From: Prevotella sp.
GTDB lineage: Bacteria > Bacteroidota > Bacteroidia > Bacteroidales > Bacteroidaceae
Reading direction: 5' to 3'
Length of the DNA: 37,761 nt
Assembly (NCBI GenBank): GCA_017548605.1
Contig: JAFYZT010000050.1
Coordinates: 1-37,761 of the forward strand
A program made the translations under genes and the position numbers. Below, in pieces: positions 3,358 through 35,500 of the stretch. The number at the start of each line of letters is the position of its first letter. Within the stretch, counting starts at the first letter, position 1. Under the pieces are notes generated by a model. It ran no database searches and had not been told where the DNA came from. It saw only the letters and a list, made by a program, of their open reading frames with translations.

Positions 3358-3450
3358 CAAGTAATTACCATGTTGAAAGAGAAGAAATCTGGTGGGAATA
3401 ATGAGAGAATGAAGCAAGCAATAATCAAGAATAAGAATCGTTATATAAAT

Positions 3451-3864
3451 ATGAACAAGAAAATTGGACGAATTATCAACTTGAAAAAGATTGTCGACCC
3501 CAGGGGCAACCTCACGGTTATTGAAGGCGAGACAGACGTGCCTTTTGCCATTCAACGTGTATATTGGGTGTATGATGTTCCCGCCGGTGAATACCGGGGC
3601 GGTCATGCCCATAAGAATTGTCGTGAGTTGTTGGTGGCCCTGAGCGGCAGTTTCCAAGTGACAATAGACAATGGTACTGAGAAAGAAACCTATCTTCTGA
3701 ACCATCCTTATCAAGGCCTCCTTATCGAGGCTGGTCTTTGGCGTACCCTTGACGATTTCTCATCAGGAGCTGTCTGCATGGTATTGGCTTCCGATCCTTT
3801 TGAAGAAGAAGACTATATACGAGAATACGAAAAGTTTATCAAGGGTAAAAAAGTAAAAGGGTAA
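3451..3864 (+). CDS. FdtA/QdtA-type dTDP-4-oxo-6-deoxyhexose isomerase (cupin)
   Basis: A 137-residue single-domain cupin. INLKKIVDPRGNLTVIE at the N-terminus, RVYWVYDVPAGEYRGGHAHK with its histidine pair, and LIEAGLWRTLDDFS are hallmarks of the FdtA/QdtA/WxcM sugar 3,4-ketoisomerases, which convert dTDP-4-keto-6-deoxyglucose to the 3-keto form for amino-sugar synthesis. I start at 3451, where the family normally begins; an in-frame ATG at 3370 would add 27 lysine- and asparagine-rich residues not typical of the family. The last residues (KGKKVKG) are encoded by an AAAGGGTAAA-type tandem repeat that also contains the stop. The partner aminotransferase (FdtB) is not next to it. Confidence 0.82.
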   Translation: MNKKIGRIINLKKIVDPRGNLTVIEGETDVPFAIQRVYWVYDVPAGEYRGGHAHKNCRELLVALSGSFQVTIDNGTEKETYLLNHPYQGLLIEAGLWRTLDDFSSGAVCMVLASDPFEEEDYIREYEKFIKGKKVKG

Positions 3865-5475: not shown

Positions 5476-6846
5476 TTACTTTACTTTTCCATTTTTCCAG
5501 AGCACATGGAACGGTTTCTTTGGGAATCGCATCATCTCATGTCCTTTTCCCCAACCGTTGAGTCCGTTATAGATAAGAAATCTCGGCATGTGGTTGAGAA
5601 CCGGTGACCACCACAAAGCAGAATTGTATATCCACTTATTGTTGAACACCATACTCATGCCCCTTGACATCCATTTCTTTTCTGAAGAGGCATGTCCTAA
5701 TTCTTTCAACTGCTGCCTCCATCGATACACCTGTTCACCGAGATCTACCTTAGCAGGGCACACGTTGGAACACGATAAGCATAGCGAACAAGCCGACACA
5801 TTATCGTAATATTTGTCAACATTCTTGAGCATTCCCAAATTAACGCCGATGGGGCCGGGAATGAAATATGTATAGCTATATCCAGTACTTCTACGATAAA
5901 CCGGACACGTGTTCATACATGCCCCGCAGCGTATACATTTCAGCGTGAGCCAATGTTGTTCATTTGCAATAATATCGCTTCGTCCGTTGTCAACAAGCAC
6001 CACATGCATCTCCGCTCCTGGTCTTGCTTTTTCAAAGTGTGCCGTAAAGGTTGTTGTAGGCTGTCCCGTTCCGCTTCTACATAACAGTCGGTGGAATACA
6101 GCGAGACAGTCGTAGTTAGGAACTATCTTTTCCAATCCCATCGCTACGATATGCAGTTTCGGCATCGACGTGCTCATGTCGGCATTTCCCTCATTGGTAC
6201 AAACCACCACATCTCCCGTTTCCGCCACACCGAAGTTACATCCTGTCATTCCTGCCTCTGCGAGCATGAATTCATCGCGGAGGTGATACCTTGCACATCT
6301 TGTAAGATATGTGGGGTCGTGGTTGCCTATCTCCTTGCTGATTCCCCGTCTTTCGAATTCCTCGCCTATGGCATCACGTGAAATATGCAGAGCCGGCATA
6401 ACGATATGAGATGGTTTTTGATCCATTAACTGTATAATACGCTCACCGAGGTCTGTTTCCACCACATCGATGCCGTGTTTTTCGAGATATGGGTTCATCT
6501 CACATTCTTCGGTCAGCATACTCTTGCTTTTGACCATTTTCTTGACATCGTGATCCTTCAGAATTTTAAGAACTATCTCGTTGAATTCTTCGGCATCCTT
6601 GGCCCAATGCACATGCACTCCCCTTTTTTCGAGGTTTTTCGAGAACATGTCGAGGTAGTCTGCAAGGTGTGTCACCGTATGCATCTTTATCTGGCTAGCC
6701 AATTCGCGCAGGTCTTCCCATTCAGGCAGGCCCTGTGCCATAATATCCCTTTTTTCACGCACGCCCCAAAATGTCTTGTCGTGCCGGGTAATTTTTTCCA
6801 CGTTCTTCAAATATTCGTGGCTTCTTTTTGCATGTACTGTACTCAT
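5476..6846 (-). CDS. lutB: lactate utilization iron-sulfur protein B
   Basis: A 456-residue LutB/YkgF protein. An N-terminal LUD-like domain is followed by two [4Fe-4S] ferredoxin-type motifs, CIRCGACMNTCPVYR and CSLCLSCSNVCPAKV, and a C-terminal region ending in the conserved PKKPFHVLWKNGK. It passes electrons in LutABC lactate oxidation. The start at 6846 overlaps the lutA stop as ATGA; a longer in-frame start at 6933 would lie inside lutA and adds residues not matching the family, so it was not used. Confidence 0.93.
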   Translation of the reverse strand: MSTVHAKRSHEYLKNVEKITRHDKTFWGVREKRDIMAQGLPEWEDLRELASQIKMHTVTHLADYLDMFSKNLEKRGVHVHWAKDAEEFNEIVLKILKDHDVKKMVKSKSMLTEECEMNPYLEKHGIDVVETDLGERIIQLMDQKPSHIVMPALHISRDAIGEEFERRGISKEIGNHDPTYLTRCARYHLRDEFMLAEAGMTGCNFGVAETGDVVVCTNEGNADMSTSMPKLHIVAMGLEKIVPNYDCLAVFHRLLCRSGTGQPTTTFTAHFEKARPGAEMHVVLVDNGRSDIIANEQHWLTLKCIRCGACMNTCPVYRRSTGYSYTYFIPGPIGVNLGMLKNVDKYYDNVSACSLCLSCSNVCPAKVDLGEQVYRWRQQLKELGHASSEKKWMSRGMSMVFNNKWIYNSALWWSPVLNHMPRFLIYNGLNGWGKGHEMMRFPKKPFHVLWKNGKVK

Positions 6847-7580
6847 AGTCCTGCTGCTAAGATTTCTACTACGTGAATGAATTTGATAGGCATCTCCTGA
6901 CGTTTGGCTATTCCAGCCATGTGCATCAGGCACGAGCTGTCGGGTCCTGTTACATATTCCGCCCCGGTGTCGATGTGTCTGTTTACTTTATCGATACCCA
7001 TTCGTGTTGAGACATCCGTTTCCTCGATGGAGAACAACCCACCGAATCCACAGCATTCATCTTTTCTCTCCGGTTCATGGATTTCGATACCTCCGACGAG
7101 TTTGAGCAGGTCGATGATTTTGTTGAAAGGAGGCACATTTCTTTCAGAAGGAGCAGACAGTCCCAGTTCCCTCACCCCATGGCATGAGTTGTGCACACTC
7201 ACCTTATGAGGGAATTTCCCCGGCACCTCTTTTACTTTAAGTACATCATGTAGGAATTCCACGACATCCATGGTCTTTTTTGCAGTAGTGCACTCCATCT
7301 TCCCTTTCATGATTTCCGGGTGAAAACATCTGACGAACGCTGCACACGATGCTGACGGAGCTACGACATAGTCGTACTTTTTGAACATGTTTTCATATTT
7401 CTCAATCAGAGGTTCCGACATATATTGGAATCCTCCATTTGCTTGCGGCTGTCCACAGCAGGTTTGTTTAATGGGGTATTCCAAGTCAACGTCATAATGC
7501 TTCAACAGTTTGTAAGTTGCGACGGCCACCTCGGGATAGACGGCGTCGACATAGCAAGGAATAAATAAGCCGATTTTCAT
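6843..7580 (-). CDS. lutA: lactate utilization protein A (cysteine-rich CCG domains)
   Basis: A 245-residue LutA/YkgE protein with the two cysteine-rich CCG domains: CYVDAVYPEV...TCCGQPQANGG in the first half and NSCHGVRELG...DECCGFGGLFS in the second. These domains coordinate an unusual iron-sulfur centre and relate to heterodisulfide reductase subunits. It is the first gene of lutABC, with its own promoter 43-73 bases upstream. Length and motifs are complete. Confidence 0.93.
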   Translation of the reverse strand: MKIGLFIPCYVDAVYPEVAVATYKLLKHYDVDLEYPIKQTCCGQPQANGGFQYMSEPLIEKYENMFKKYDYVVAPSASCAAFVRCFHPEIMKGKMECTTAKKTMDVVEFLHDVLKVKEVPGKFPHKVSVHNSCHGVRELGLSAPSERNVPPFNKIIDLLKLVGGIEIHEPERKDECCGFGGLFSIEETDVSTRMGIDKVNRHIDTGAEYVTGPDSSCLMHMAGIAKRQEMPIKFIHVVEILAAGL

Positions 7581-11002: not shown

Positions 11003-12988
11003 ATGTCACACCATCATCACCATCATCACGATGAACAATCACACGAATGCCATTGCAACGAGCATGTTCACGAGAGTCATCATCATGAGCACGAGCACGG
11101 CAGTTTGAAGAAGCAGATTCTAATTATCGCCCTCACCGTTATTTTGCTCATCGGTGCTGTTCTTATCGAGAAGTATTGTCATCTTTCCACTTGGCAGTTG
11201 CTATTGGTTTATCTCGTTCCTTACTTACTTATAGGGCAGGGCACATTGAAGGAAGCATTAGAAGGTCTCGTTCACGGAGAAGCGTTTAACGAACATTTCC
11301 TTATGTCGGTGGCCACCCTAGGTGCTCTGAGCATCGGTTTTCTCCCCGGTGCTAACACCCAGTTTCCTGAGGCCGTATTCGTCATGTTATTTTTTCAAGT
11401 AGGCGAACTATTTGAAGGATATGCTGAAGGCAAGAGTCGAGCCAGTATTTCCCACCTGATGGACATCCGTCCCGACGTGGCTCTTGTGGAACGTTCAGGA
11501 GCAACTGTCAGCATCTCGCCCTCCGATGTCACCATTGGAGAGACGGTCGTTGTCAAGCCAGGCGAGAAGGTACCCCTTGACGGTATTGTCATTGAAGGTC
11601 GCAGTGCCTTGAACACGGTAGCCCTGACAGGTGAGAGTGTCCCACGTGAAGTGGTGGAAGGCGACGAGGTCATCTCCGGCTGTATCAACCTGTCGGGAGT
11701 TCTCAAGTTACGCACAACGAAAAGTTTTGGTGAAAGCACCGTATCGAAGATTCTCGAATTGGTGGAACATGCCACCGAGAACAAGTCAAAGAGCGAGAGT
11801 TTCATCACCCGTTTTGCAAGATATTACACCCCCATTGTCGTTTTCGCCGCCATCGCAGTAGCCTTCATTCCTCCGTTGTTGTCGGGTTCTTTCAGCAGTA
11901 CTTTCCCCACTTGGCTCTATCGTGCCCTGATGTTCCTCATCGTATCCTGTCCCTGCGCGTTGGTCATCAGCGTTCCCCTCACCTTTTTCGGCGGTATTGG
12001 CGGTGCATCACGTCAAGGCATTCTCATCAAAGGCTCCAGCTATATGGACATTCTATCAAAGGTTGGAACTGTCGTATTTGACAAGACCGGAACTTTGACA
12101 CACGGCCAGTTTGTTGTCGAAGCTGTCCATCCCGAGCGTTTTGACGAGCGTCATCTTCTTCATTTAGCCGCCCATGTAGAGCAATTCTCCACGCATCCTA
12201 TCGCCATAGCCCTTCGAGATGCTTTTCCCGAGGCTTCTACCGACAGCTGTTCAGTAAGCGATGTTGAAGAAATCTCCGGTCATGGTATCCGTGCCCTTGT
12301 TGACGGCAGACAGGTTTGTGTAGGCAATACGAAGCTGATGGAATCAGTAGGAGCTGTCTGGCATGACTGTCATCTTCCCGGCACCATCATTCACATGTCA
12401 ATTGACGGTGTTTACGCAGGTCATATCGTCATTAATGATGCTATCAAGACTGACAGCAATTCTGCCATTGAGCAATTGAAGTTACAGGGAACAGACCACG
12501 TGGTGATGCTTACCGGTGACCGTGAAGATGTGGCTGCTCATGTAGCCCGCCAGCTACATATCGATGATTATAATTCCGAATTATTGCCTACCGACAAGGC
12601 CTTGCATGTGGAGCGGCTTCTTGCCGAATGCCATGCCAACAATCGATCATTAGCCTTTGTAGGTGACGGCATCAACGATGCTCCCGTGTTGGCCCTTTCC
12701 GATGTGGGTATCGCGATGGGCGGTTTAGGCAGTGATGCAGCCATTGAAGCCTCAGACATTGTCATTATGGATGACTGTCCTACGAAAGTGGCGTTAGCTA
12801 TGAAGATAGCGCGTCGAACGCTCGGTATTGCCTGGGAGAACGTCCTTTTTGCCATTGGTGTTAAGGTTGCCGTTCTTCTGTTAGCCGTCTTTGGCCTTGG
12901 CACATTGTGGATGGCCGTTTTCGCCGATGTCGGCGTCACTGTTTTGGCTGTACTGAATGCCATGCGCGCTTTAAAGATTTCGCACTAA
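11003..12988 (+). CDS. Zn/Cd/Pb-type P1B ATPase with His-rich N-terminus
   Basis: A 661-residue heavy-metal efflux P-type ATPase. Residues 2-33 are extremely His-rich (seven histidines in a row, then HxH and CxC elements) and replace the usual HMA metal-binding domain. Then come membrane helices, the actuator TGES (LTGESVPRE), the intramembrane metal site SCPCALVIS near residue 315, the phosphorylation motif DKTGT at about 360, the HP motif in STHPIAIA near 397, and GDGINDAPVLALSDVGIAMG from about 554. The CPC motif, together with an aspartate in the last helix (FADVGVTVLAVLNAMR), points to Zn2+/Cd2+/Pb2+ export like ZntA/CadA. It stands alone, divergent from the LytTR system. Confidence 0.92.
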   Translation: MSHHHHHHHDEQSHECHCNEHVHESHHHEHEHGSLKKQILIIALTVILLIGAVLIEKYCHLSTWQLLLVYLVPYLLIGQGTLKEALEGLVHGEAFNEHFLMSVATLGALSIGFLPGANTQFPEAVFVMLFFQVGELFEGYAEGKSRASISHLMDIRPDVALVERSGATVSISPSDVTIGETVVVKPGEKVPLDGIVIEGRSALNTVALTGESVPREVVEGDEVISGCINLSGVLKLRTTKSFGESTVSKILELVEHATENKSKSESFITRFARYYTPIVVFAAIAVAFIPPLLSGSFSSTFPTWLYRALMFLIVSCPCALVISVPLTFFGGIGGASRQGILIKGSSYMDILSKVGTVVFDKTGTLTHGQFVVEAVHPERFDERHLLHLAAHVEQFSTHPIAIALRDAFPEASTDSCSVSDVEEISGHGIRALVDGRQVCVGNTKLMESVGAVWHDCHLPGTIIHMSIDGVYAGHIVINDAIKTDSNSAIEQLKLQGTDHVVMLTGDREDVAAHVARQLHIDDYNSELLPTDKALHVERLLAECHANNRSLAFVGDGINDAPVLALSDVGIAMGGLGSDAAIEASDIVIMDDCPTKVALAMKIARRTLGIAWENVLFAIGVKVAVLLLAVFGLGTLWMAVFADVGVTVLAVLNAMRALKISH

Positions 12989-13144: not shown

Positions 13145-13291
13145 TAGTGTTTCTGTGAAGAAGAAGCGTTTGTAAGAATACTTTTCCACCTTGCCAACAC
13201 ATTTTAAGTTAACTAAATCGTAGTGCTGCAAAAAAAGACAAAAAAACGCGTTAACGAGTGCAAAATAGCCGCGTATTAATATGTGGAAAGC

Positions 13292-13299
13292 TATTTTTG
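13292..13299 (+). promoter_or_regulatory. promoter element placed for a leaderless mRNA
   Basis: TATTTTTG at 13292-13299 is followed by CATC and then the ATG at 13304, the same four-base spacing as in front of the kinase and ABC-F genes. No clear TTG lies 19-20 bases upstream. Confidence 0.45.
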
Positions 13300-13303
13300 C
13301 ATC

Positions 13304-13897
13304 ATGTTCATGCAGATAAGGCGTACATATTGGTTGATTCAATTGTTGTTAGTGGCGCTAACAGCAACAGCTCAACAAGACAGCCTAGAGGTGACGCGCC
13401 CTACGATGGCCATGGTATCCGACACCGTTGTTGTCATAGACTTGGAGACTGGTCTTCCATTGCGCGACGTGAAATTTTTCACGAATACCGGTGAGATGCG
13501 GCAGACCGACTATCGCGGCCGTTTTGTGCTCCCCGACAGCACGTTTCAGAGTGCCACGCTGACTCATGGCAAATACCTGAACAGGGTGTTGGAACGTTAT
13601 GAAATAACCGACACATTGGAGATGTTGCCATCAGCCAGTAGTTTAGGCGACGTGGTGGTATGGGGCAAGGACCGCAGGCTCATCCTCTCGATGGTTGCCT
13701 CTGCCACAGAAAACCTGGCAGCATACGCCCCGCCCAAAGCCATGGTTAATTTTGACTTTTTCAAGTTGTTTGAGAAGAAGCCCCTGAACAAGAAAGCTCG
13801 TCGCGGCAACAAGGAGCTATTAGAGCATTGGGACGAGGTGTATGGAGAACCCACCCCATCCCTCCCAAAGGGAGGGAGCCATGAGGGGCGTGAATAG
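13304..13897 (+). CDS. secreted protein with carboxypeptidase-regulatory-like domain
   Basis: A 197-residue protein with an N-terminal signal peptide (IQLLLVALTATAQ). Residues about 38-100 (VVVIDLETGLPLRDVKFFTNTGEMRQTDYRGRF and onward) resemble the beta-sandwich carboxypeptidase-D regulatory-like fold common in Bacteroidota envelope proteins; GDVVVWGKDRR then resembles the start of a TonB plug, but no barrel follows. Start 13304 is preferred over 13283 because the promoter element lies between them and the upstream residues do not suit a signal peptide. The last residues (PSLPKGGSHEGRE) come from a palindromic repeat that has replaced the natural end. Function unknown. Confidence 0.6.
   Translation: MFMQIRRTYWLIQLLLVALTATAQQDSLEVTRPTMAMVSDTVVVIDLETGLPLRDVKFFTNTGEMRQTDYRGRFVLPDSTFQSATLTHGKYLNRVLERYEITDTLEMLPSASSLGDVVVWGKDRRLILSMVASATENLAAYAPPKAMVNFDFFKLFEKKPLNKKARRGNKELLEHWDEVYGEPTPSLPKGGSHEGRE
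13859..13877. repeat. palindromic element TCCCTCCC-AAA-GGGAGGGA
   Basis: An 8-base perfect stem with AAA loop, lying inside the 3' end of the preceding coding sequence. Related copies occur at 14403-14421 and 24518-24534. Confidence 0.75.
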
Positions 13898-14378: not shown

Positions 14379-14421
14379 GGAGGGGAAAAAACCTCCCCCT
14401 TACCCCCTCCCAAGGAGGGGG
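14379..14421. repeat. C-rich/G-rich palindromes, probable terminator
   Basis: CCCCCTCC-CAA-GGAGGGGG (14403-14421) is preceded by a further GGAGGGG/CCTCCCC inverted pair around AAAAAA (about 14379-14399). On the minus strand the hairpin is followed by GGGGGAGG and a run of six T, so it may terminate the cytoskeletal-like operon. It belongs to the same palindrome class as at 13859 and 24518. Confidence 0.6.
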
Positions 14422-14444: not shown

Positions 14445-15035
14445 TTATTGGTATTCGATGATGGCCTTTTGGGTAATAACCCAGAGGCCATTTTTCAAGA
14501 CTGCTTTTCCGGGTTGACAAGTGTAATGAGAAGATTTTGCCGTTGAGAAAGTGCAGGCTCTTTCGATGTATTTTTTTGAACTGTTATTAGCTTTTGACAG
14601 TTGCGTCTCGCTGATGGTTTTAAAACGGAACTCCGCCTCTGTTGGTGAGGTAAGGTGGAATTCATAATATGTATTTTCCGTTGCCACTGGTTCACGTTCC
14701 GCATCATCAAAAGCACCTTCTTCATTAGGCCATTTGAAGAAGAACACATCCTTTTTCGTTACCGGTTGTATTTGTTCGACGGGTGCCTTTGGTTTTGTAT
14801 CGTTTGAGAAAAACAACCTCTGTTCGATGGAAGCGATGCGGTCGTTGATTGTTTGCAAATCAAGCTCCCGTTGTTTAGCTGTTTTTCCGACATAATCTTT
14901 CATTTCTTTCTTAGTAGCGAAATAGCTGTCTGCATGTTTGTCCGCCTCGTCATTGGAACGGTTAACAGATTTGAGTCGCCACTCTACATAAGCGATGGCA
15001 GCTGCAAACAGGACAAGAGATATTACGATAGACAT
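14445..15035 (-). CDS. membrane-anchored coiled-coil protein, last gene of the cytoskeletal-like operon
   Basis: A 196-residue protein with one N-terminal membrane helix (SIVISLVLFAAAIAYVEWRL), then a charged coiled-coil region (about residues 30-75, with heptad-like IDQ/IASIEQRL spacing), and a C-terminal globular part of about 100 residues with predominantly beta-like sequence (YYEFHLTSPTEAEFRFKTIS). No known family is recognised. It is encoded 55 bases after the large actin-like ATPase gene on the same strand, so it may link the cytoplasmic proteins to the membrane. The gap before it is a simple AT repeat. Confidence 0.6.
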   Translation of the reverse strand: MSIVISLVLFAAAIAYVEWRLKSVNRSNDEADKHADSYFATKKEMKDYVGKTAKQRELDLQTINDRIASIEQRLFFSNDTKPKAPVEQIQPVTKKDVFFFKWPNEEGAFDDAEREPVATENTYYEFHLTSPTEAEFRFKTISETQLSKANNSSKKYIERACTFSTAKSSHYTCQPGKAVLKNGLWVITQKAIIEYQ

Positions 15036-15040
15036 AAAGA

Positions 15041-15087
15041 AAGATTGAAAGATTAAAAAATTTAAAGATTATAAAATTAAAAAATTA
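15041..15087 (-). repeat. AT-rich degenerate tandem repeat
   Basis: Repeated AAAGATTAAA/AAAATTAAAA-type units (plus-strand sense) fill the space between the actin-like and coiled-coil genes. Confidence 0.55.
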
Positions 15088-15090
15088 TAT

Positions 15091-18000
15091 CTATGACAAG
15101 TTATTCGTAGAAATATGGTATGCCAATCGTGCAATGCCACCTGTGAGGGGAATGAAGAACAGCGAGTCGTTTATTTCGGGGTTTTCCTCGTTTGCCATCA
15201 TTTCCTTTCTCTGCGCCACCACTTTATTGAAATCTTGTTCTGCCTTATCGGTGAGTACCGTTTTGAACTCATTGAATTCCCTTTCATTGTTCACTCCGAA
15301 GTACTTGGCAAAGCTGTATTTGCCGTTAAGAGAGAAGAAATAGTCAATGAACTTGCTATACTCTTCCATCACCTCATCCCGTACTTTCGGACTGATATCG
15401 GCATATCTTGGATTATTCACCTTGTCAAGCATTGGGGAGCCGGTTCTGAATATCGTGATGCCCTCAACATCATCAACGACAAAGCGCTGTCGCATGTTCA
15501 GTCCACCCTTGCAAGTTATCTCCTTCGGATTATCCACCAGCTTCAGTTCTACCTTTCCCTCATCGCCAAGAATATCGTTGAAAATAATTCTTGCCATGTT
15601 TTGGAGCACATCGATGCCTCCAATGAGTGTCAACACCTTGGAACCAGTACCACTCACCGTCACATAAGCCGGAGAGGACAGTTTTTTCTCTTTGAGCAGA
15701 TGCGCCGCATAGTTTATCTCTGCGGCATAGAACAACAGGAGTACTACTTTCATGGACTGGTTTGCGCGCAGTTCATCGCTAAACGACGCCCCTCTTCCTA
15801 TCATTCTCGGGTTTGAGTCAAGTGAATAGAGGAAAGACACAAATTCCGCGCTTGACCGTTTCGCTTTCGTGTAAACATCGTTCACACCCGGTATATCGCG
15901 CAACAGCTTATCGAACAGCGGAGCGAATGCTCTCATGAAGCCATTGTATTCCGTACTTCTTCCCATGAAATCGCCGTAAATGCTGTTTCCGGCAAACCTT
16001 ACCGACGAGATAGCCACTGCCGCATTACCTTGGTGGTAAACAACGAAGTCCGTGGTTCCTCCACCGATATCAAGTGACACCACCGGACGCGACTCTGCGT
16101 CAACATCCTCATTCATGGTGTAATAATAATACGGAGCCAGCGATTCCGGCACTTTCATCAGCCTGCATCCCTGCTGAGCGACCAGTTTCTTTGTCAACTT
16201 GCTCCATGCCCCTTCGAGCGATGCTATCTGATAAGGCTGCATACATACAGGATAGAACCAAGTGATGCCTGTACGCGCCAGGTTTCCCCCATTCATAAGC
16301 ACCTTGTTGCGTATCAGGAGCAACAACTCCTCGAAATACGCCTCAACGAGCAAATTATCGTTTTTAGTATCCGCCCATTTAAGGTCAGTGCGTGTAGTGT
16401 TATAGTCGTATGTATCCTCTTTTTCATAGTGGAATCCCACATTATAATCCGCCAGAGTCAGCGCATCACGTCCCTCCACGTTATGCCCCTCTCTGAAACA
16501 CAGGTTTGTTCGCATGGGGAAGTGAGCCACCTCACCTTGTGCGATGACCAATGGCAAGAACTCCTGCATGAATGCCTGTGCCGGTCCCCCATAGAACGAC
16601 TCCAATCCCTGCTCATCCATGCGTTTGACGGTTTGTTCGGAGAGAGAGTTCAGCGCGAGCACTTGTGTTTGCTCATATTCAACAGTAAGCGGTTTCGTCT
16701 GTTCGTCATCATCCGTCCTGTATTCCACATGCGTATTTGTCGTACCGAAGTCGACAGCGAAGTCGAACACCTTATTTCCTTGTTTTATCTCCCGGAACCT
16801 TGGTATGAGCACACCTTGGTCATTCCCATTACTTACTACCAGGTAGTCATATTCCTGGTCGAGACAGAAATAACGTGAAGCGAGGAAATGTTCCGTCTTG
16901 TCAGCCCTCTCGACCCTTGTTGTGTCGAGCGGAGCATCGTTCAGGTGTTTATATGGATATGCTGAATATTGGTATTGTTCTTTTCTGAACCCTTCTGTAT
17001 CCTCATCGACAAGATATATACGTTGGGGCGATGGCAGTTCATCATCGATGATATGGAACGACGGGAAGAGGAACAAATCGATTCTCGCCTCCACGACGGG
17101 GAACAGTCCTTGGTTAGCGTAGGATGCCGTGGACAATGGTGTATAGTCCCTTCGTAGTGTGATGTATCTACCTTTTTGCACAGGGATTCTTACTATTGCC
17201 CTCACCGTACCATCCGCCATGTTGTTGAGTTCGCATACAGGTTCAGCACTATTTCCCGCATAACCCATCACCGTTTGCACTTTGAGGTATTTGAATATCA
17301 GCGGTCTTAGGGGGAGAAGATACTGGCATTCATCATTCATCGTCCTACCCTCCCGATACAGTGCGTTTACGAAGGCCTTATCATTGATGGGGAACGGCAC
17401 TTTTATCAGTGAAGGTTGGAAGACGTCGTCAGCCGTAATATACGGATAAGGAGAACTATCGAAAGGCAGCGTCCGTTCCTCCAAAGGCCGTTTATCCTCA
17501 TTGGGAGCCGTCAACCGTGGCATCCACTCCACCGTAGTGTATTTCATCTGTTTTTCGAAATACGGTTCTTCCGGCAGTATGAGAGGCATTCGCTCGTTAT
17601 TCACCGTTTGTCTGTCGGCGAGAATACGGAAATCACTTTCTTCCGCTATGCGGTTTCCTTTTGCCGTCATCAGCGGCCATCCCCCAGGCAACAGAATTTG
17701 CGAAGCCCCTACCGCCAGTGGTTGGTAAAGCGACTGGTACATTGCCGGTGGCATGGCATTGACTTGGTTTTTGAAATCCGTGTCGTTGTCCAGCCTGAAG
17801 CACTCGTCGACATAAGCATAGAAATCATTAAACAATGCGTTGAATCCCTGTTGTTTAGCCATGAGGTACACAAACAGTTTGAATTCCCTGTCTCTGTCGC
17901 ACAATGCCCTGAACGTTCCATCCTCATCTTGTTGGAAAGCCTCGTGGTAATTACCCAACCAAATATTCTTCACATAAGAAAGGTCGTTTGGAGAAGCCAC

Positions 18001-18522
18001 AGTTACCGATGTCGGTGACGTAGCCCCCACAATATTCAATTGTCCGACGGCTCCATGTCCCACGAAATTGAGCATGTATATTTGTTGCATCTCATCGAAG
18101 TGAAATGCCTTTTCATCTTGCGAGAGGAACAGTTGCAACGTCTCCGCCACCGCCTTGTGTTCTGGAGTACCGTCAGCAGCCAGTTGTTGTAGCGAGTTGT
18201 TTTTATCCCACGCCACTATTTGGAAATACTTCTCGTACTTTGTTTTGTACCCAAAGAAAATCTCGAGTATGTCAAGCGCATTTGCCACCAATTTGTGGTA
18301 AATGGTGCTACCATGAGCATTTCCTCTTTGGGCACAATAAGCGAATGCTGTTTTTGTTAGTTCAAGTCCTGCGAAGGGCGTAGGAATGGAAGTGATAGGC
18401 AGGGAAGCCTTTGCCCCGTTAGGATCGTCGATTGCCTCAATGTCCTTTGCGCCCACTTGCGCTGTTTCCTGCCACCCGTCGATGGTATCTGCCCCTTTAT
18501 GGAATCTGAAGACGTAAGCCAT
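15091..18522 (-). CDS. large protein with actin/Hsp70-fold ATPase core
   Basis: A 1143-residue cytoplasmic protein with no signal or membrane helix. Its C-terminal half has the three nucleotide-binding motifs of the actin/Hsp70/sugar-kinase superfamily: phosphate-1 VDFGTTNTH (about residues 590-598), phosphate-2 LDIGGGTTDFVVY (about 817-829) and the adenosine motif VSGTGSKVL (about 956-964). The N-terminal 580 residues have no recognisable domain. Large size and layout recall the SrfB-like group of actin-fold proteins, but I cannot confirm homology. The start is 7 bases after the tubulin-like gene stop, so the two are probably made together. An ATP-dependent filament, chaperone or switch role is inferred. 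Confidence 0.8.
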   Translation of the reverse strand: MAYVFRFHKGADTIDGWQETAQVGAKDIEAIDDPNGAKASLPITSIPTPFAGLELTKTAFAYCAQRGNAHGSTIYHKLVANALDILEIFFGYKTKYEKYFQIVAWDKNNSLQQLAADGTPEHKAVAETLQLFLSQDEKAFHFDEMQQIYMLNFVGHGAVGQLNIVGATSPTSVTVASPNDLSYVKNIWLGNYHEAFQQDEDGTFRALCDRDREFKLFVYLMAKQQGFNALFNDFYAYVDECFRLDNDTDFKNQVNAMPPAMYQSLYQPLAVGASQILLPGGWPLMTAKGNRIAEESDFRILADRQTVNNERMPLILPEEPYFEKQMKYTTVEWMPRLTAPNEDKRPLEERTLPFDSSPYPYITADDVFQPSLIKVPFPINDKAFVNALYREGRTMNDECQYLLPLRPLIFKYLKVQTVMGYAGNSAEPVCELNNMADGTVRAIVRIPVQKGRYITLRRDYTPLSTASYANQGLFPVVEARIDLFLFPSFHIIDDELPSPQRIYLVDEDTEGFRKEQYQYSAYPYKHLNDAPLDTTRVERADKTEHFLASRYFCLDQEYDYLVVSNGNDQGVLIPRFREIKQGNKVFDFAVDFGTTNTHVEYRTDDDEQTKPLTVEYEQTQVLALNSLSEQTVKRMDEQGLESFYGGPAQAFMQEFLPLVIAQGEVAHFPMRTNLCFREGHNVEGRDALTLADYNVGFHYEKEDTYDYNTTRTDLKWADTKNDNLLVEAYFEELLLLIRNKVLMNGGNLARTGITWFYPVCMQPYQIASLEGAWSKLTKKLVAQQGCRLMKVPESLAPYYYYTMNEDVDAESRPVVSLDIGGGTTDFVVYHQGNAAVAISSVRFAGNSIYGDFMGRSTEYNGFMRAFAPLFDKLLRDIPGVNDVYTKAKRSSAEFVSFLYSLDSNPRMIGRGASFSDELRANQSMKVVLLLFYAAEINYAAHLLKEKKLSSPAYVTVSGTGSKVLTLIGGIDVLQNMARIIFNDILGDEGKVELKLVDNPKEITCKGGLNMRQRFVVDDVEGITIFRTGSPMLDKVNNPRYADISPKVRDEVMEEYSKFIDYFFSLNGKYSFAKYFGVNNEREFNEFKTVLTDKAEQDFNKVVAQRKEMMANEENPEINDSLFFIPLTGGIARLAYHISTNNLS

Positions 18523-18529
18523 ATTCTGT

Positions 18530-19987
18530 TCAGAAGTTGAATTTTCGTTTTATCACGTTGTTAATGGCCGTTTCATGAACGGTGATGAAAAAGTTGTATG
18601 CGTCGAGTCCTTTGATTTTTTTCATCGACACATCCGATATCTCCGAGTCAACGGCTGGGAATCCCTGCAAGTTTTTCCCCAGCCACTTATCAATCTTCGA
18701 AGTTTTCTTCGGGTGTATATGGTTGATAGTGTCGAAGATGTCCGCCTCTGCAGGGTATAGTTCGAAGGGTTGGAAAGAGCGTTGGTTGTCCGACATTTCC
18801 TTTAGCCAATGCGCCCGGTATTCATCGAGGAACTGTCCTAAATCGATGAAGAAAGGATCGGAGAAAGACACCCCCTTCATCTGTTGGGTCTTAGTCCACG
18901 CATATTTTTTAGTCTCTTGGAAATGTTCGAGATAGAACCTAGCAAACACGAAGAAGCTTACCATTTCCTTTCCCATCACAGAGAAAGTAGCCGGTCCGAG
19001 GTCAGGCAATGTTATCGGGTTCAGGTCTTCGCGCACTGCGAATTCGCGGAACGAGGTGCCTCCGTTCTTTTTATGTCTGATGTCAGCCTTGGCGAAGTCG
19101 ACAATACCCAGAGCAGCCGCCATTTCCACGAAATGAGCGTTGTTTTTCTGCTCCGTAGCCCCTTCCACGTTGTTATACCTGTTTTTGATGACATCGCACA
19201 TATAGTAGAGCGCATCGACATCAAGGTTTCCGATATAGTATTTCAGAGCCGCCTTCGTTTTCGACATGAACGTTTCCATTTTTATCTGGCTCTCCTTGTC
19301 GTCTTTTAGTCCAAAATACGGCAATACCGTGACGGCTCCTATTGGAGCGTTTGCTATTGCCGCTGAGTTGGGAATGTCAAGCGATTCCGCTTCACGCATT
19401 GTTTTTTGCAGCAATGGAAATCCTGCCGCCCCCGTACCACCGAAAATACTGGAAATAATAAATATGCGGTCGCCCGTTTGGAAATGCTGCATAAGTTCAA
19501 TGAGCGACTTCGTGTTCTGGGGATCGTTAAGCACTATTGAGCCCATGTTCGGATTTCCCTTGAACCCCACGTCGAGTGGTGTCTGTAGGTTTTGGTCAGA
19601 GAACAGCAGCGAGAGCAGTGCCTGATTGGGGTCGGGTTGTCCTTCCGTCGTGAATCTGTTGAAAGCGATGTAGTCGGAGAACTTCATGTTCGCCACATTA
19701 TTGAGGTGCAGTCGGAAGTTTGTGTCCATATCGTCAATATCGACATGGAAATAACCGTTTTTCTCCGCTCTGTTGTCGAACTTCAGGTGTTGTCGTATTT
19801 TCCTATACAATTGCATGATGCCGATGGTTCGACTCAGGTCACCGTTTGAGCTATCCGGGTCGATGATGACCGGTACCACGGTATCAATATCTGGTCCCAG
19901 TGAGACTCCAGAAGCGAGCAGCATGGTGAGGGAACGCAATACTCTTGCACCTGTTCCTCCAATGCCATATATATACAGTTTGCTCAT
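18530..19987 (-). CDS. tubulin/FtsZ-like GTPase candidate
   Basis: A 485-residue protein starting with a strand and GIGGTGAR loop (residues 8-15), equivalent to the T1 nucleotide loop. An acidic loop IIDPDSSNGD (41-50) follows, and IISSIFGGTGAAGFP (about 178-191) matches the tubulin signature (G)GGTG[SA]G. This is the pattern of the bacterial tubulin-like family annotated as tubulin-like domain proteins. About 290 residues follow the signature; no clear catalytic T7 loop could be identified by eye, so GTPase activity and polymerisation are inference. It is the third gene of a five-gene operon, followed after 7 bases by the actin-like protein. Confidence 0.78.
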   Translation of the reverse strand: MSKLYIYGIGGTGARVLRSLTMLLASGVSLGPDIDTVVPVIIDPDSSNGDLSRTIGIMQLYRKIRQHLKFDNRAEKNGYFHVDIDDMDTNFRLHLNNVANMKFSDYIAFNRFTTEGQPDPNQALLSLLFSDQNLQTPLDVGFKGNPNMGSIVLNDPQNTKSLIELMQHFQTGDRIFIISSIFGGTGAAGFPLLQKTMREAESLDIPNSAAIANAPIGAVTVLPYFGLKDDKESQIKMETFMSKTKAALKYYIGNLDVDALYYMCDVIKNRYNNVEGATEQKNNAHFVEMAAALGIVDFAKADIRHKKNGGTSFREFAVREDLNPITLPDLGPATFSVMGKEMVSFFVFARFYLEHFQETKKYAWTKTQQMKGVSFSDPFFIDLGQFLDEYRAHWLKEMSDNQRSFQPFELYPAEADIFDTINHIHPKKTSKIDKWLGKNLQGFPAVDSEISDVSMKKIKGLDAYNFFITVHETAINNVIKRKFNF

Positions 19988-20041
19988 TCTTTTATTTAGG
20001 GAAGCTATTAGGAAGTTAATGGAAAGTTAAAGTGGCAGTCC

Positions 20042-20458
20042 TCAGAAAGGGATGTTTCTACATCTGCTGCTGAATGATTTGAAAATGATGGAAAAGATGA
20101 CGAAGAACAATGCCGCCCAAGCGAATACGATGACACCAAAAGTAGTATAGTCTTCAACTCCGATATCGGCATTGTGAATGTTTTGCATGAAGAGATATCC
20201 ATGCAGCTTCGTTCTTGCTATAAGCAGAGAGATGACCGTGCAGGCCACTGCCGTTATTCCTCCGATCATCGCCCATTTGCTGTTTCTGGCCAGAAGAATA
20301 TGGTCGAGGATAATGTAATATACGAATGCTACAGCCACAGGCAGCAGCAGTGTGACGTAAAACACGGAGCCATAGACATCGGCTTGGTACATATATTTAG
20401 AGAAATCGCCAAGGTAGGCACCTCCAAATAATTCAAATATATCTGTTGTAAATTCCAT
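20042..20458 (-). CDS. small three-helix membrane protein
   Basis: A 138-residue integral membrane protein with three hydrophobic segments: about residues 28-50 (YGSVFYVTLLLPVAVAFVYY), 62-80 (WAMIGGITAVACTVISLLIA) and 106-128 (VIVFAWAALFFVIFSIIF), plus a short basic C-terminal tail. Start 20458 (MEFTTDIFELFGG) is chosen over an upstream ATG at 20500 that adds a Cys/His-rich, family-untypical stretch. It lies between the vWA-like and tubulin-like genes and is a candidate membrane anchor. No family is recognised. Confidence 0.65.
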   Translation of the reverse strand: MEFTTDIFELFGGAYLGDFSKYMYQADVYGSVFYVTLLLPVAVAFVYYIILDHILLARNSKWAMIGGITAVACTVISLLIARTKLHGYLFMQNIHNADIGVEDYTTFGVIVFAWAALFFVIFSIIFKSFSSRCRNIPF

Positions 20459-20528
20459 CTGTTTGATAGTTATTGATGAGCCGCAACGATGTTGCGGCAA
20501 AGGATACTCTAGTATTGTTCAGTTCGAA

Positions 20529-21830
20529 TCAGTCGTAGTGGGCAACGCGGATTTTGAGTCGGAATATATCTTTGTCGTTACCACCTTTTACGTTGTGGAA
20601 TGCCCCGAATATTCCTTCCACCATTTCATATAGTGCATAGGATTTATGGGGTGCCGGGTATCCCATGAGATGTTTATTGTAGCTGCACTCGCTCACCCAT
20701 TTCGGTATGCGGTTTTTGAGCACCAGTGTTATCTCCGGTGCATAGCTATCGTTGCCTGTTCCTATTTGCACACATATTGGCCTTTGGAAGAAGTCACATT
20801 CCGTGAATTTTGACTTATCGTTGATATCGAGGAGTCGGTATTGGGCAGGCAACACCTCATAGTTGGCCGAGTCAAGCACATATTCACGATCGGCGAATAG
20901 TTGTTCTATGCCCAATCCCACAGCGAATTTCAACGAATTAGCATCCTGATCTGTTGTGAAGTTATGAATATTCAATCCGTCATGTTCGGGTTGTATTCGC
21001 AATGCGTTTGTGAACCCAGAGGTGAACACACGGGCCGTTTGGTTGTCAAGGTCCCAAGTCTTCTCAGAAGAGAGCATATATTTATGTTTCAACCCCGGCA
21101 TTCCCGTTGGTGTATTTTCCAGTTCAAGGTGAGCATTCAAATCAGCCAGTCTGTCCTTATCTCCCATGAATATAAAGAAATAAGGTCGTTTTCCATAGTA
21201 CGGCATACCCACATTTCCCTCATAATGAGTACCTTGGAACATCGACTCCATTTGCAGGATAATAACTCCGAATTCTCGTTTATTATCCTGAGCCCGTTTT
21301 ATCGCTTTCATGAATGTTCCCGTTGTAGCGCTTGAAGCTCCGGACAGCAGATTTCCCACATTGTCAACATCGTAGACACAATCGCTCACGAGCACACTAA
21401 CCGTATCGCCATTGGTACGGTCGAGAAGGAGTTTGAAAATCTTGTTGAGGTCCGTATTCCCTGTATGTCCCACTTTCATACTGGTGGTGTTCAGGCGCAG
21501 CACGAAATTGTTGAGATCCTGGCAAATTGGTGCGTCGTACACATCGTCGTTCACGAATAACAGTTTTGTGTCGTCGTAGTATCCGTCGGCTTTTGCCAAG
21601 AGGTGCCCGAGTGCGTTTTTGAACTGCGTATTAAGAGTTACAAATCCATCCATGGAACCTGAGTTTTCCATGTAAATACGCACAACAGGTTTTCCTGCCA
21701 CCATTTGAGCGGTGTCAGGAGGAAGGAAATGTCCATCGGTATTTCTTCTGTCAGACTTGTGTCCAATGAGATACAATGTTAATCCCACGACAGCTATCAA
21801 GAGCAGAAGAGCCCAAGACTTACGTTGCAT
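20529..21830 (-). CDS. membrane-anchored vWA-like protein
   Basis: A 433-residue protein with a single N-terminal membrane helix (residues 6-22) and the rest outside the cytoplasm or on the periplasmic side. A von Willebrand A-type domain begins at about residue 49: VVRIYMENSGSMDG carries a MIDAS-like motif in which the first Asp of DxSxS is Glu55 (E-N-S57-G-S59), T126-D127 in HTGNTDLNK supplies the second site, and D150 in SVLVSD the third. The C-terminal 250 residues have no known domain. It is the first gene of the operon, led by a full promoter, and probably binds partners in a metal-dependent way. Confidence 0.75.
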   Translation of the reverse strand: MQRKSWALLLLIAVVGLTLYLIGHKSDRRNTDGHFLPPDTAQMVAGKPVVRIYMENSGSMDGFVTLNTQFKNALGHLLAKADGYYDDTKLLFVNDDVYDAPICQDLNNFVLRLNTTSMKVGHTGNTDLNKIFKLLLDRTNGDTVSVLVSDCVYDVDNVGNLLSGASSATTGTFMKAIKRAQDNKREFGVIILQMESMFQGTHYEGNVGMPYYGKRPYFFIFMGDKDRLADLNAHLELENTPTGMPGLKHKYMLSSEKTWDLDNQTARVFTSGFTNALRIQPEHDGLNIHNFTTDQDANSLKFAVGLGIEQLFADREYVLDSANYEVLPAQYRLLDINDKSKFTECDFFQRPICVQIGTGNDSYAPEITLVLKNRIPKWVSECSYNKHLMGYPAPHKSYALYEMVEGIFGAFHNVKGGNDKDIFRLKIRVAHYD

Positions 21831-21855
21831 GTGTTAATAATTTGTTCGAACGGTG

Positions 21856-21886
21856 CAAATTTACGCAAAAAAAATGAATTGCCCAA
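21856..21886 (-). promoter_or_regulatory. promoter of the five-gene cytoskeletal-like operon
   Basis: On the minus strand TTG (21886-21884), 20 bases, TAAATTTG (21863-21856), a full Bacteroidota match, leaving a leader of about 20 bases. No further promoter of this form was noticed between the five genes, supporting one transcript. Confidence 0.78.
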
Positions 21887-21936
21887 AAAAGGAGGGAAGA
21901 AATGAGGGATGAGCGAAGGGTGACAAAAGAAGAAAA

Positions 21937-21955
21937 GCCACGGCGATGCCGTGGC
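21937..21955 (-). terminator. terminator of the TonB-dependent receptor gene
   Basis: GCCACGGC-GAT-GCCGTGGC stem (8 bp) followed on the minus strand by TTTTCTTCTTTT, a good rho-independent terminator. It separates the receptor gene from the vWA operon promoter. Confidence 0.85.
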
Positions 21956-22008
21956 CTATGAAGAAAAGAGGAGTGGGATAAGTGACAGAGATGATAAGGG
22001 ATAAGGGG

Positions 22009-32504: not shown

Positions 32505-35500
32505 TTATTTCACTACCACTTTTTTACCGTTTTGGATATAAATGCCTTTTTGGGTAGGTATGCCTGTGAGCCTCCGTCCATCGACGGTATAGAAAGCCCT
32601 ATCCCCGTCCATATTTTCGGATGTCGCAATATAGCTTATATCCGTTGTCTGTTCATCGCCTTCACTTTCTTCATCAATGATGAACGCAATGTTCGCATAG
32701 TCATCACCAATGAATGTGGATGTGATGTACCAACGATACGCACCCAGTGTCTGACCAGCTGCATTCCATTTCAGATTACCATTGGTATTCAAACTGAACC
32801 ACTGTTCCGCTTCTGCAGTTGAATAAGAATCATAAACACCATAAAAATCGTAAGTGTTAGTTGTTGTTGAAACTTGTTTCAAGCTACTCGAATCCATGGC
32901 TTTAAGAGCAGTATTTTCGGCAACGAACTCGTATACACCTGCCGTTTTCGGCTTAATGATGTATGGTTTATTGGCTTTCAGGGTATATCCCTCGGTTACC
33001 TCAACGATTTTCATGACGACCTTATTCTCGTCTTGAACGACACCATCCTGGCCTGCTTCAGCGGAGAACATATGCATACGATAGAAGGAACTTCTATCGA
33101 GATCTTCAGCCGTTATGGTATAGTCGAAGGGCACGAACCAGCACTGGCGATGTCCTGCCGTCTTTGATGAGAACTCACGTTTGTAAGTTACCGACGACAC
33201 CTCAATATCTTCATCGATAGAATATGGTGTTTTTTCGGATAGCAAGTCTAGTAACATCACCCCTTCAGGCAAAGGATCATCAGCAACAAGAGATATGATG
33301 GGGTCAGGTGCGCCCTCGGCTTTGGTGATGAAAGCCATAGAACCGTTGACCTTTGCCGACGTGTCGTAATCATTCACTTTCACTGGTGCGCTTAGGGTTG
33401 TGCCATCCGCGCCGATAAGGAGTACCGACCCATCGACGGTGAGGTTTTCGGCGAGTGTCATACCCGTGAAGGAGTAGTCGCCATAGGTGACCGTCACATC
33501 GTTGAGCGCAGAGTAATTGATGATGGGGTTACGGAGCACCACCTCATTGAAGATAAGCGTAGAGGGCGCATTGGCTGACGGTTTAATGATATACGGTACA
33601 CCCGCCACCGGCAGTCGGTCTTCCACGGGCAAGAAGAGCATCGTTGTGCCATCCTCGGAGACACCCGTGAACTCACGTAGTTCATAGTCGTCGCCGAATG
33701 CAGTCTTCATTTGTTCGAGCGACGGCGCAAACGGCAGTGTGAGAGCGTTCCATGCGTCTTTGGTGAACGAGCGGTTGGTCATGGTCACGTTGACCAATTT
33801 GTTGGCTTTCGCACTCATGGCATCTGTCGATGACACCGTCACGTCGTAAGTAAAGTCGGTGGGTGTACATGCCTCCTCATATTTCTCGTTGATGAGTTGT
33901 TGCAGCGTGGCTATGCGCGCTGACATCCATGATTTCAGGTTGTTGGCATAGTCTTCCTGGTTTTGCCATTGGCAATATGCCTCCATGCCCTCTTGATGTG
34001 TCACATCCCATCGTGTGTAATTGAGTGCCCATGTCTGTGCTATCATCGCCGAAGTATTGTCGATGAAAGCATGCACCTTGCTTTCCAAGCCCTCGTCGAT
34101 CAAGCGGTCGAGCAGTTCCTTCATCTTCCTGATGAACATCGGGTCGGCATATAGTTTTCTCACGATACCCTGAAGAGTGGATCCATTGGGATTGTATGCC
34201 ACGAGGATGTCGGACGTATCCGACTGGAAATTGCTAAACGCCAGGTCCTTATCCCAGATAGGTCCGAGGAATAGTTTTCCGTCGGCCTCGCGGTATGCCT
34301 TGACGGTCATCAGACCATCCCAGTCGCCCGTCAGTTCGGTGAGCACCAGGAACTTCACCCACGTCTCCTCGTCGTTGTAGGCTCTCCATCCCGTTATGGG
34401 ATCAGTGAGATTAGCGTCGAAAGAAGGAATCCATACTGTGTTGAACCACTCTTTTATGGGGTTGATGATGGCGTTGCGCTGCGCCTCGTCGTTCTCGTCG
34501 GCGGGTTCCGGGTTTTTGATATTCATCAGCACGCCTTCCTCGAAGCACATTGGTTGGTCGAGCATGCCCGTGTTGCCTTGGAATTCCACATACCATCCTG
34601 TATCCTCATCAACATCGATGCGGTGGGATCCCACATCACAATGGTCCGTCACCTGGTAGGTGCCACGGTAGTCACCATTGATGATCATATCGACGTACAT
34701 AAATCCTGGTGTGAAGGACAACCCTACCAGTTCCGACATTTCATATGACAAAGCGTTTTGCAGCATCGAGTGGTCAAAGGTGTTGGCCAGCAGCACCCAG
34801 TTGCGTTCGGCATATCCCTTACCGGTGAGGTCGTGTTTTTTCGCCTTACCCGTTGACGATGTTTTCTTGCTGGCGAACTTCAGGCGGTAAGCCCTTTTCG
34901 ACGGGACTGCTGTGGCGTTGCCTCGCACCTTTATCTCCAAGTCTTGCGGGTTGGTCTCCTCGAACGATTCCAAATAGCATGGGCTGTCCGTTTCATCCGT
35001 AGCCACGACCTTAATGGTGGCGTGGTGATAATCCGCCTGTCCGGTGTTACGGTCTTTGGTGAGTTGCGTGTCCAAGTCGGTCACATCAGGTATATCGATA
35101 TATATAGCGGGCACGTTGGTGATTTGCAATCTATTGGCCATTTTCACGAACATCGGGTCGTCGTCTTGGAACACCAGTCCCTCGAAGGTTGTATTTTCCG
35201 GAGTGACTTTCGGAACCACCGATGCGTCGGATGAACAGATATAGGCCGCTGTAGCCTTGACATTGCCCCCGTAGCGCCATCCAATACTCTTCAACATCCC
35301 TTCCGTCATTTGATAATACCCATCATTGGCGAGATCCCAGTTATGCGAGAAGATAACCCCCTTTAGTGCCATGTTCTCAGTGCCTTGGAAAGTTGTTGGA
35401 TCGCTGTTGAGCGTGACCGTCACATTGTTGAACGTCGGGTTAGTGACCCTCGATTTTGTCCGCATGAGGTATGCTACCCCTGCTGTCAGCTGGGGCGTTT

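Follow-up and report, generated by a model that had tools for sequence, protein, structure and literature searches.

A Bacteroidota operon encoding predicted tubulin-fold and actin-fold proteins together, with a MotA/MotB-like motor in many relatives

Tubulin-fold and actin-fold proteins are usually studied apart, and the best-known bacterial pair is that of FtsZ and FtsA in cell division, where the actin-fold partner ties the tubulin-fold filament protein to the membrane. Here we analyzed a five-gene operon of a Prevotella sp. that encodes a predicted member of each fold. It lies in contig JAFYZT010000050.1 of assembly GCA_017548605.1, and the window referred to throughout is the whole stretch of DNA analyzed, 37,761 nucleotides long (positions 1 to 37,761). 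All five genes are on the minus strand, in the order of a von Willebrand factor A (vWA)-like protein, a three-helix protein (TM3), a tubulin-like protein (TUB), an actin-like protein (ACT), and a coiled-coil protein (CC); the loci of many relatives also encode a MotA-like protein (X) and a MotB/ZorB-like protein (Y). Among the closest described systems, the FtsZl1 proteins surveyed by Makarova and Koonin in 2010 (PMC2875224), with a Bacteroides caccae protein in figure 1, have vWA, P-loop GTPase, kinase, and OmpA-family neighbors, and membrane remodeling was proposed for them. The GAP1-N2 GTPase-centric conflict systems of Kaur et al. 2020 (PMC7159879) are predicted systems, and the Zorya paper (PMC11890865) cites Protein Data Bank (PDB) entry 8vvn, which also proved nearest to Y. 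TUB is a distant relative of FtsZl1, and we have not filed it as a member because the cut-off of Pfam Tubulin_2 (PF13809) was not reached. The architecture of the operon is well supported; its role we infer, and we tentatively favor, at somewhat less than an even chance, the proposal of a nucleotide-switched surveillance machine that spans the envelope, has the five genes as its core, and is probably directed against phage or envelope damage.

The AlphaFold2 model of TUB, computed from an alignment with 59 relatives, had a predicted local distance difference test score (pLDDT) of 87.8 and a predicted template modeling score (pTM) of 0.91. All 50 Foldseek matches listed for this model were FtsZ, CetZ, TubZ, or tubulin-containing entries (best expectation value, E, of 4.2e-5; 16 matches at E <= 0.001; probability 0.98-1.00 among the matches listed). 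Template modeling scores by query were low (0.21-0.28) and root-mean-square deviations (rmsd) high (5.7-15 Å), which argues for a fold shared with tubulins but divergent from them. FtsZ has a sheet domain at its C terminus; the last third of the TUB model is helical, without a C-terminal domain of this type. Residues G10, G11, G13, R15, and F182-A187 (FGGTGA) were invariant in 60 TUB sequences, as was G189 (60/60), and hydropathy gave a single weak peak at residues 175-193, inside the fold core. TUB matched PF13809 at E 0.0012 (18.6 bits, under the cut-off of 27), all members of a 12-member TUB set matched the same family at E <= 0.01 (best 1.2e-8), and a search of PDB sequences with the TUB profile returned CetZ alone (E 0.046). 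These results support a predicted tubulin fold for TUB.

For ACT, the corresponding model (57 relatives in the alignment; pLDDT 86.4, pTM 0.78, residues 1-36 unreliable) yielded ParM, MreB/Mbl, Hsp70-family, and BeeR entries as its 50 listed Foldseek matches, with E of 1e-9 to 5e-8, probability 1.00, template modeling scores by target of 0.26-0.56, and rmsd of 7-27 Å. Invariant in 58 ACT sequences were D591, G593, T594, N596, D818, G820, G821, D825, S957, and G958. The nucleotide motifs span residues 591-961 of 1143, placing the actin fold in the C-terminal half, and the Hsp70 layout, with the nucleotide domain N-terminal and a substrate-binding domain behind it, is not found. Hydropathy gave no transmembrane segments. 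Pfam FtsA (PF14450) was matched at E 0.0019 (19 bits, under the cut-off of 31.8), and the ACT profile found MreB (1.4e-4) and Hsc70 (0.003) among PDB sequences. The predicted fold and the three nucleotide motifs support placing ACT in the actin/Hsp70 superfamily.

The wider comparison began from a scan of a genome collection with the TUB alignment, which gave at least 571 relatives; the best 80 were kept, so that this set leans to near relatives, and 31 further loci, many of the window's genus, were added for a total of 111 (two of them, L015 and L036, share an identical ACT and are probably one genome counted in two collections). The alignments used 59 of 61 (A4), 57 of 58 (A5), 37 of 41 (A6), 28 of 28 (A7), 42 of 53 (A8), and 54 of 69 (A11) rows from reference lists already thinned for near copies and length; A4, A5, A8, and A11 also include the window protein. 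TUB was followed by ACT on the same strand, with a gap of at most 1.5 kb, in 111/111 loci (80/80 and 31/31), and all five genes stood in order in 89/111 (68/80 and 21/31); among the remaining 22, some are cut by contig ends, some have no recognized CC, and six belong to divergent subtypes. As the loci had been picked by TUB, ACT alone was used to search 276 genomes of the genus, each at least 90% complete. ACT was carried by 88, all within the 93 TUB carriers, and lay downstream of TUB on the same strand in 88/88, a count that leaves out five TUB-only genomes and was obtained with a profile built from ACT proteins beside TUB, which may favor such copies. The median distance between the two matches was 42 bases; it was below 300 in 82 genomes, the other six being partial matches or longer gaps. 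In the five TUB-only genomes the TUB matches were weak and divergent, and the two that were fetched (L116 and L125) have ACT beside TUB. Because the gene order recurs across the phylum, the operon is more than a chance arrangement.

These results bear directly on the initial annotation, which was made from the window's sequence. Its protein with a tubulin signature and its 1143-residue protein with three actin/Hsp70 motifs were both borne out, since AlphaFold2 and Foldseek predict both folds and the GTP-loop and motif residues are invariant (60/60 and 58/58). The tubulin-like and actin-like pairing it proposed agrees with the two predicted folds and with the presence of the genes together in every locus examined, and the gene order is conserved. 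Its view that the operon does not serve cell division is likewise consistent with our findings: TUB was considered as the division FtsZ and rejected, since in the window's genome the sole above-cut-off match to the Pfam tubulin family comes from another gene, located on a different contig.

The distribution of TUB is patchy: among 392 phylum genomes it was found in 12, two of these weakly, and among 276 genus genomes in 93, a count that includes the window's own; named carriers include Leyella stercorea, Parabacteroides distasonis, and several Hymenobacter. A TUB search of phage records gave zero matches. Plasmid records gave three (one 1.77-Mb Prevotella replicon and two cyanobacterial records at 26-27% identity), and four IMG/VR contigs carried TUB, one of them distant. 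Integrase-like proteins were noticed by eye upstream in L064 and L048. A divergent subtype occurs within the window's genus (L115 5095-14717, also L122 and L124) and comprises a 470-511-residue upstream protein, a small membrane-type protein, TUB, ACT, and an 874-1018-residue protein that, read by eye, is Hsp70-like with repeats in L115. A distant TUB-ACT pair and a further protein that starts like Hsp70 lie on an IMG/VR contig (L129 9995-20952) whose genes, read by eye, include phage-like or mobile-looking ones.

Many relatives extend the operon. X follows CC in 63/111 loci (56/80 and 7/31), and Y is present in 43/111, always with X, some fetched stretches ending before Y; X lies outside the window and was seen solely through the loci of relatives. 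X is mostly 430-580 residues long, with three or four predicted transmembrane segments in 55/61 open reading frames (ORFs), and Y mostly 205-240 residues, with one such segment in 33/34. Two of three X proteins tested pass the MotA_ExbB (PF01618) cut-off, and two of three Y proteins tested match OmpA, one just under the cut-off (E 6.6e-6) and one under it (0.0021). The PADLOC ZorB1 model matched 28/28 Y proteins and the NCBIfam ZorB1 model 26/28, in the member shown with 22.6 bits against a cut-off of 400. The nearest solved structure to Y was 8vvn_B (E 1.2e-14), compared with 4.5e-5 for the top entry whose name is MotB alone, and the Asp of the SDLMT motif, which we take to be the place of the MotB proton site, was conserved in 28/28. 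The X profile gave mostly coiled-coil matches in the PDB, with MotA/ZorA weak, and hhalign found X and Y unrelated, as expected. In 30/63 X loci the fetched stretch also holds ORFs for a protease (aspartyl or trypsin-like) or a nuclease (Endonuclease_NS), three families in all, sometimes away from the immediate downstream position, and 16/27 such ORFs carried lipobox-like signals.

Further genes were observed around these loci. One stretch (L106, G034 contig 27, 8651-10933) holds a second X/Y (ZorAB-like) pair without TUB, possibly a separate Zorya-type locus, and its neighbors include a canonical-looking FtsZ ORF (2460-3794) and, by eye, a macro-domain-like ORF (5631-6896). In 13 of 20 genus loci, motorless and of another clade (L132-L140 and L142-L145), the next gene after CC, or after an intervening aspartyl protease, encodes a zinc-ribbon-like protein of about 265-348 residues with a transmembrane segment; one member tested had no Pfam match. 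In L101 (16301-17230) and L021 (13331-14428), a trypsin-like protease follows a staphylococcal-nuclease-like domain (by eye).

The window's operon has no X or Y. In a 106-row ACT tree, which was built quickly, drew long-branch warnings, and requires at least seven changes in motor presence, the window falls in a 15-row Prevotellaceae clade (12 motorless rows and 3 that could not be assigned). This clade groups with the motor-bearing Leyella stercorea and one further unassigned row at a Shimodaira-Hasegawa-like approximate likelihood ratio test (SH-aLRT) value of 100. The X and Y profiles were strong in five other genomes each, with one marginal match each (G075, 0.0066; G045, 0.0047). A motor supplied in trans was considered for the window's own genome (G000) and rejected as improbable, as neither profile found anything in this 92% complete assembly; its two MotA_ExbB genes, on other contigs, were not matched by the X profile. 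Ratios of nonsynonymous to synonymous substitution rates (dN/dS) between the window and L026 were 0.028 for vWA, 0.043 for TM3, 0.019 for TUB, 0.056 for ACT, and 0.063 for CC, and those in up to three further pairs of the clade were 0.015-0.214; synonymous sites are near saturation and the ratios are rough. All five window genes are under purifying selection, and the window form is therefore a working derivative.

The three other proteins appear to be membrane-associated. The initial annotation had described a membrane-anchored vWA-like protein, a three-helix protein, and a membrane coiled-coil protein, and hydropathy agreed in each case, with one transmembrane segment in the vWA-like protein (residues 5-23), three in TM3, and one in CC (residues 1-19). 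Lipobox-like signals were found in 45/88 ORFs of the vWA family, and three transmembrane segments were predicted in 74/88 of the TM3 family; in L023 the two proteins are fused as one ORF. The motif residues of a metal ion-dependent adhesion site (MIDAS) are present in the vWA-like family, with the first Asp swapped for Glu: of 55 sequences, 53 have E and 2 have D at position 55, all 55 carry S or T at position 126, and S59 and D150 are invariant (55/55). A profile comparison with 19 BatA-type vWA domains aligned the MIDAS motifs at E 2.3e-4, against 0.023-0.72 for four control profiles. No Pfam match was obtained for the vWA-like protein, and no PDB sequence matched it better than E 0.14. The anchor of the initial annotation held; the vWA fold, the weakest of the identifications, is graded as likely and no more because the profile probability was just 45%. 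The CC family was recognized in 9/13 loci of one set. Its median length was 200 residues in loci without the motor (n = 24) versus 391 in those with it (n = 59), kinship uncorrected, and five motorless loci have a long CC despite the short form typical there. The CC profile gave 18 chance-looking PDB matches to membrane or helical proteins, the best (4e-8) a receptor-cytochrome fusion.

The features of the operon are collected in Table 1. Its five ORFs, their strand, and the intergenic gaps of 70, 54, 7, and 55 bases were recomputed from the sequence and were as first annotated. No curated cut-off in Pfam or NCBIfam was reached by any of the five proteins. A full promoter had also been claimed: the site, found with a consensus that we take to be the Bacteroidota-type one (match at 21886-21856), is the sole match in the window, but it is weak on its own, as 36 of 100 shuffled windows also hold one. 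A sigma-70 promoter scan gave 9 matches against 12.2 expected. Terminator-like stems bracket the operon on either side; the stretch has 13 such stems, with 7.3 expected. Elsewhere in the window, the last residues of a plus-strand ORF (13283-13897) are of SLPKGG type, and near the operon terminator there is a similar CCTCC/GGAGG repeat (14381-14420), perhaps a dispersed repeat. A His-rich N terminus occurs on what is, by eye, a heavy-metal P-type ATPase (11003-12988), and a 1099-residue protein (32505-35804) has a CotH kinase domain, a domain also present in 3/115 flank proteins of genus loci.

Table 1. Coordinates of the operon and of its predicted features in the window; phosphate-1, phosphate-2, and adenosine loop are the names that we presume apply to the ACT motifs
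Feature	Position	Strand	Remarks
vWA-like protein, 433 residues	20529..21830	-	N-terminal membrane anchor; MIDAS-type residues E55-N-S-G-S59, T126, D150
TM3, three-helix membrane protein, 138 residues from ATG	20042..20458	-	alternative ORF start is TTG at 20500
TUB, predicted tubulin/FtsZ-fold protein, 485 residues	18530..19987	-	AlphaFold2 and Foldseek
TUB T1-like loop, residues 8-15, GIGGTGAR	19943..19966	-	G10, G11, G13, R15 in 60/60
TUB T4-like GTP loop, residues 182-189, FGGTGAAG	19421..19444	-	F182-A187 and G189 in 60/60
ACT, 1143 residues	15091..18522	-	N-terminal part of ~585 residues, then predicted actin/Hsp70-superfamily domain; AlphaFold2 and Foldseek
ACT predicted actin/Hsp70-fold part, ~residues 586-1143	15091..16767	-	boundary approximate
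ACT phosphate-1	16729-16752	-	motif conservation
ACT phosphate-2	16048-16071	-	motif conservation
ACT adenosine loop	15640-15654	-	motif conservation
CC, membrane-anchored coiled-coil protein, 196 residues	14445..15035	-	C-terminal domain common to family
Bacteroidota-type promoter-like site	21856..21886	-	TTGG-N19-TAAATTTG; 1 match in window, 0.51 expected
Terminator-like stem between upstream TonB-receptor gene and operon	21935..21957	-	stem scan
Terminator-like stem downstream of CC	14395..14418	-	stem scan

In the proposed surveillance machine, the anchored or lipoprotein vWA-like protein in the periplasm would form, with TM3, a sensor unit across the inner membrane, as the predicted topology and the single vWA-TM3 fusion suggest. 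Inside the cell, TUB, with its GTP-type site, and ACT, with its ATP-type site, would assemble as obligate partners tethered by CC. Complete operons would couple this assembly to the long-tailed MotA/ZorA-like protein and the wall-binding MotB/ZorB-like subunit; a proton gradient could then power the detection of envelope disturbance or action upon it, the output being secreted proteases or nucleases. The window represents a derivative that has lost the motor while the proposed sensor and tubulin/actin switch are kept under selection, as the tree and the dN/dS values show. Sensing, co-assembly, secretion, and an anti-phage role are what we infer from the constant TUB-ACT pairing (111/111 loci; 88/88 genus genomes) and the predicted folds; from the presence of X (63/111) and Y (43/111), the PADLOC ZorB1 matches, and the proton-site Asp (each 28/28); from the protease and nuclease genes (30/63 X loci), the patchy spread (12/392; 93/276), and the vWA-TM3 fusion; and from the loss of the motor in the window's clade while dN/dS stays at 0.019-0.063.

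Several observations weigh against this proposal. The same parts fit remodeling or transport, and a PADLOC scan gave no match for the five window proteins. The flanks of 20 genus loci (115 proteins) are household-like, with no integrase and one restriction enzyme; 115 control proteins resemble them, and no defense-island enrichment was seen in this comparison, which is a weak one, made with Pfam only and among the 25 of 85 flank and 25 of 110 control families listed. (Leaving out open-ended ORFs and those above 700 residues reduced the flanks from 184 to 167 and the controls from 333 to 297; a random 130 of each were drawn, and 15 operon-type proteins from the flanks and 15 proteins from the controls, namely 3 stretch starts and the last 12 listed, were removed by hand.) Upstream gene sizes recur, by eye, between Hymenobacter species, which suggests vertical inheritance of the operon there. 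The evidence for a motor is itself uneven: the third X tested had no MotA_ExbB match, none of three Y proteins tested exceeded the OmpA or MotB_plug cut-off and the third matched nothing, and the PADLOC ZorA models matched X weakly in three of four cases and not at all in one. No X was found within at least 2.6 kb in 31/111 loci, the window itself set aside, with 17 more that could not be assigned, and strong X and Y matches occurred in just 5 of 18 TUB-bearing genomes searched, so that the motor is common across the phylum sample but not in the window's genus. No ZorC, ZorD, or ZorE was recognized among neighbors read by eye, no dedicated search having been made. The surveillance proposal does not require the motor to be present in every carrier. 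A stronger form of it we consider possible but rather doubtful: the operon would represent an undescribed class of prokaryotic machine whose tubulin-fold GTPase and actin-fold ATPase can act only together; in complete operons the two would drive or read, through the cell wall, a ZorAB/MotAB-type motor powered by protons. Such a cytoskeleton-coupled rotary complex would serve immunity or envelope surveillance, and the window would show a viable form of it without the motor.

A serious rival, although on balance an unlikely one, is a membrane-remodeling or vesicle cytoskeleton without an immune role, in which co-filaments of TUB and ACT, tethered by CC and TM3, would shape the inner membrane or envelope. 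The two predicted folds occur together with membrane partners and a vWA neighbor as in FtsZl1 operons, division is served by a separate FtsZ, the Hymenobacter surroundings are similar and the flanks ordinary, and the five-gene form persists without the motor. Simple remodeling would leave the ZorB-like motor and the proteases and nucleases of relatives superfluous, however; the C-terminal end of TUB is helical rather than an FtsZ-type sheet domain, and just 12 of the 392 phylum genomes carry TUB. It is the motor, protease, and nuclease genes of relatives that move the likeliest role from remodeling to an energized envelope-sensing machine. We regard as improbable an energized transport or secretion apparatus, in which the motor, vWA-like protein, and TM3 would export or process envelope proteins, with the proteases as processing enzymes and TUB and ACT as chaperone-like assembly factors. 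The best structural matches of ACT include Hsp70-family entries, the proteases of relatives carry lipobox-like signals, and a reviewer in PMC2875224 put forward transport or signaling for FtsZl1; yet the nucleotide domain of ACT is C-terminal, unlike that of Hsp70, the motor and proteases are dispensable, and no outer-membrane channel or cargo gene was recognized in the families followed, other neighbors being mostly unclassified. That the five window genes are a decaying remnant left over after motor loss is very improbable: the motor genes are absent in the window's clade, CC is short, and the vWA and ACT ORFs are split in L029, but the five window ORFs are whole, their nucleotide motifs are kept, and the dN/dS ratios are low (0.019-0.063 against L026, 0.015-0.214 in the further pairs).

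An operon with both folds in every locus examined, across Bacteroidota, makes co-assembly outside division directly testable. The ZorAB-like motor of many relatives connects it with the problem of how phage or envelope damage is sensed by an ion-driven motor, and the natural loss of that motor provides a ready-made dissection of its contribution. We found no paper describing this operon in the open full-text literature; it may sit among the unnamed families in the supplements of PMC2875224.

Compared with the FtsZ-FtsA pair of division, ACT is 1143 residues long with a large N-terminal part and falls under the FtsA cut-off, and no division genes were recognized beside the operon. The GAP1-N2 systems share tubulin-domain proteins with transmembrane-anchored vWA proteins, or HSP70 proteins, near the membrane (PMC7159879), but there tubulin and HSP70 form distinct themes that do not overlap, are accompanied by TRAFAC GTPases and FNIII proteins, occur mainly in Firmicutes and Actinobacteria, and come without mention of MotA in the main text. 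Zorya resembles the motor-bearing relatives in its long-tailed MotA-like ZorA and its MotB-like wall-binding ZorB, to which Y was nearer than to MotB in the PDB search; it differs in that tubulin, actin, and vWA genes are not known to be among the Zorya parts, and that ZorA/ZorB-like genes are absent from the window's operon and were not found in its genome. The likeness to FtsZl1 as described in PMC2875224 covers several features: a divergent N-terminal FtsZ/tubulin-like nucleotide-binding fold with GGxGxG and GGTG loops, a C-terminal part that is helical in the model, although the extended coiled coil of FtsZl1 is not apparent, a vWA gene in the operon (here by motif and profile), often with a membrane segment, and a separate genomic FtsZ. 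TUB differs in falling under the PF13809 cut-off and in having an actin-fold protein as its constant partner; in the available text of PMC2875224, actin appears only in other contexts and a MotA-like protein is not named. The predicted actin-fold partner and the motor both lie outside the available FtsZl1 texts.

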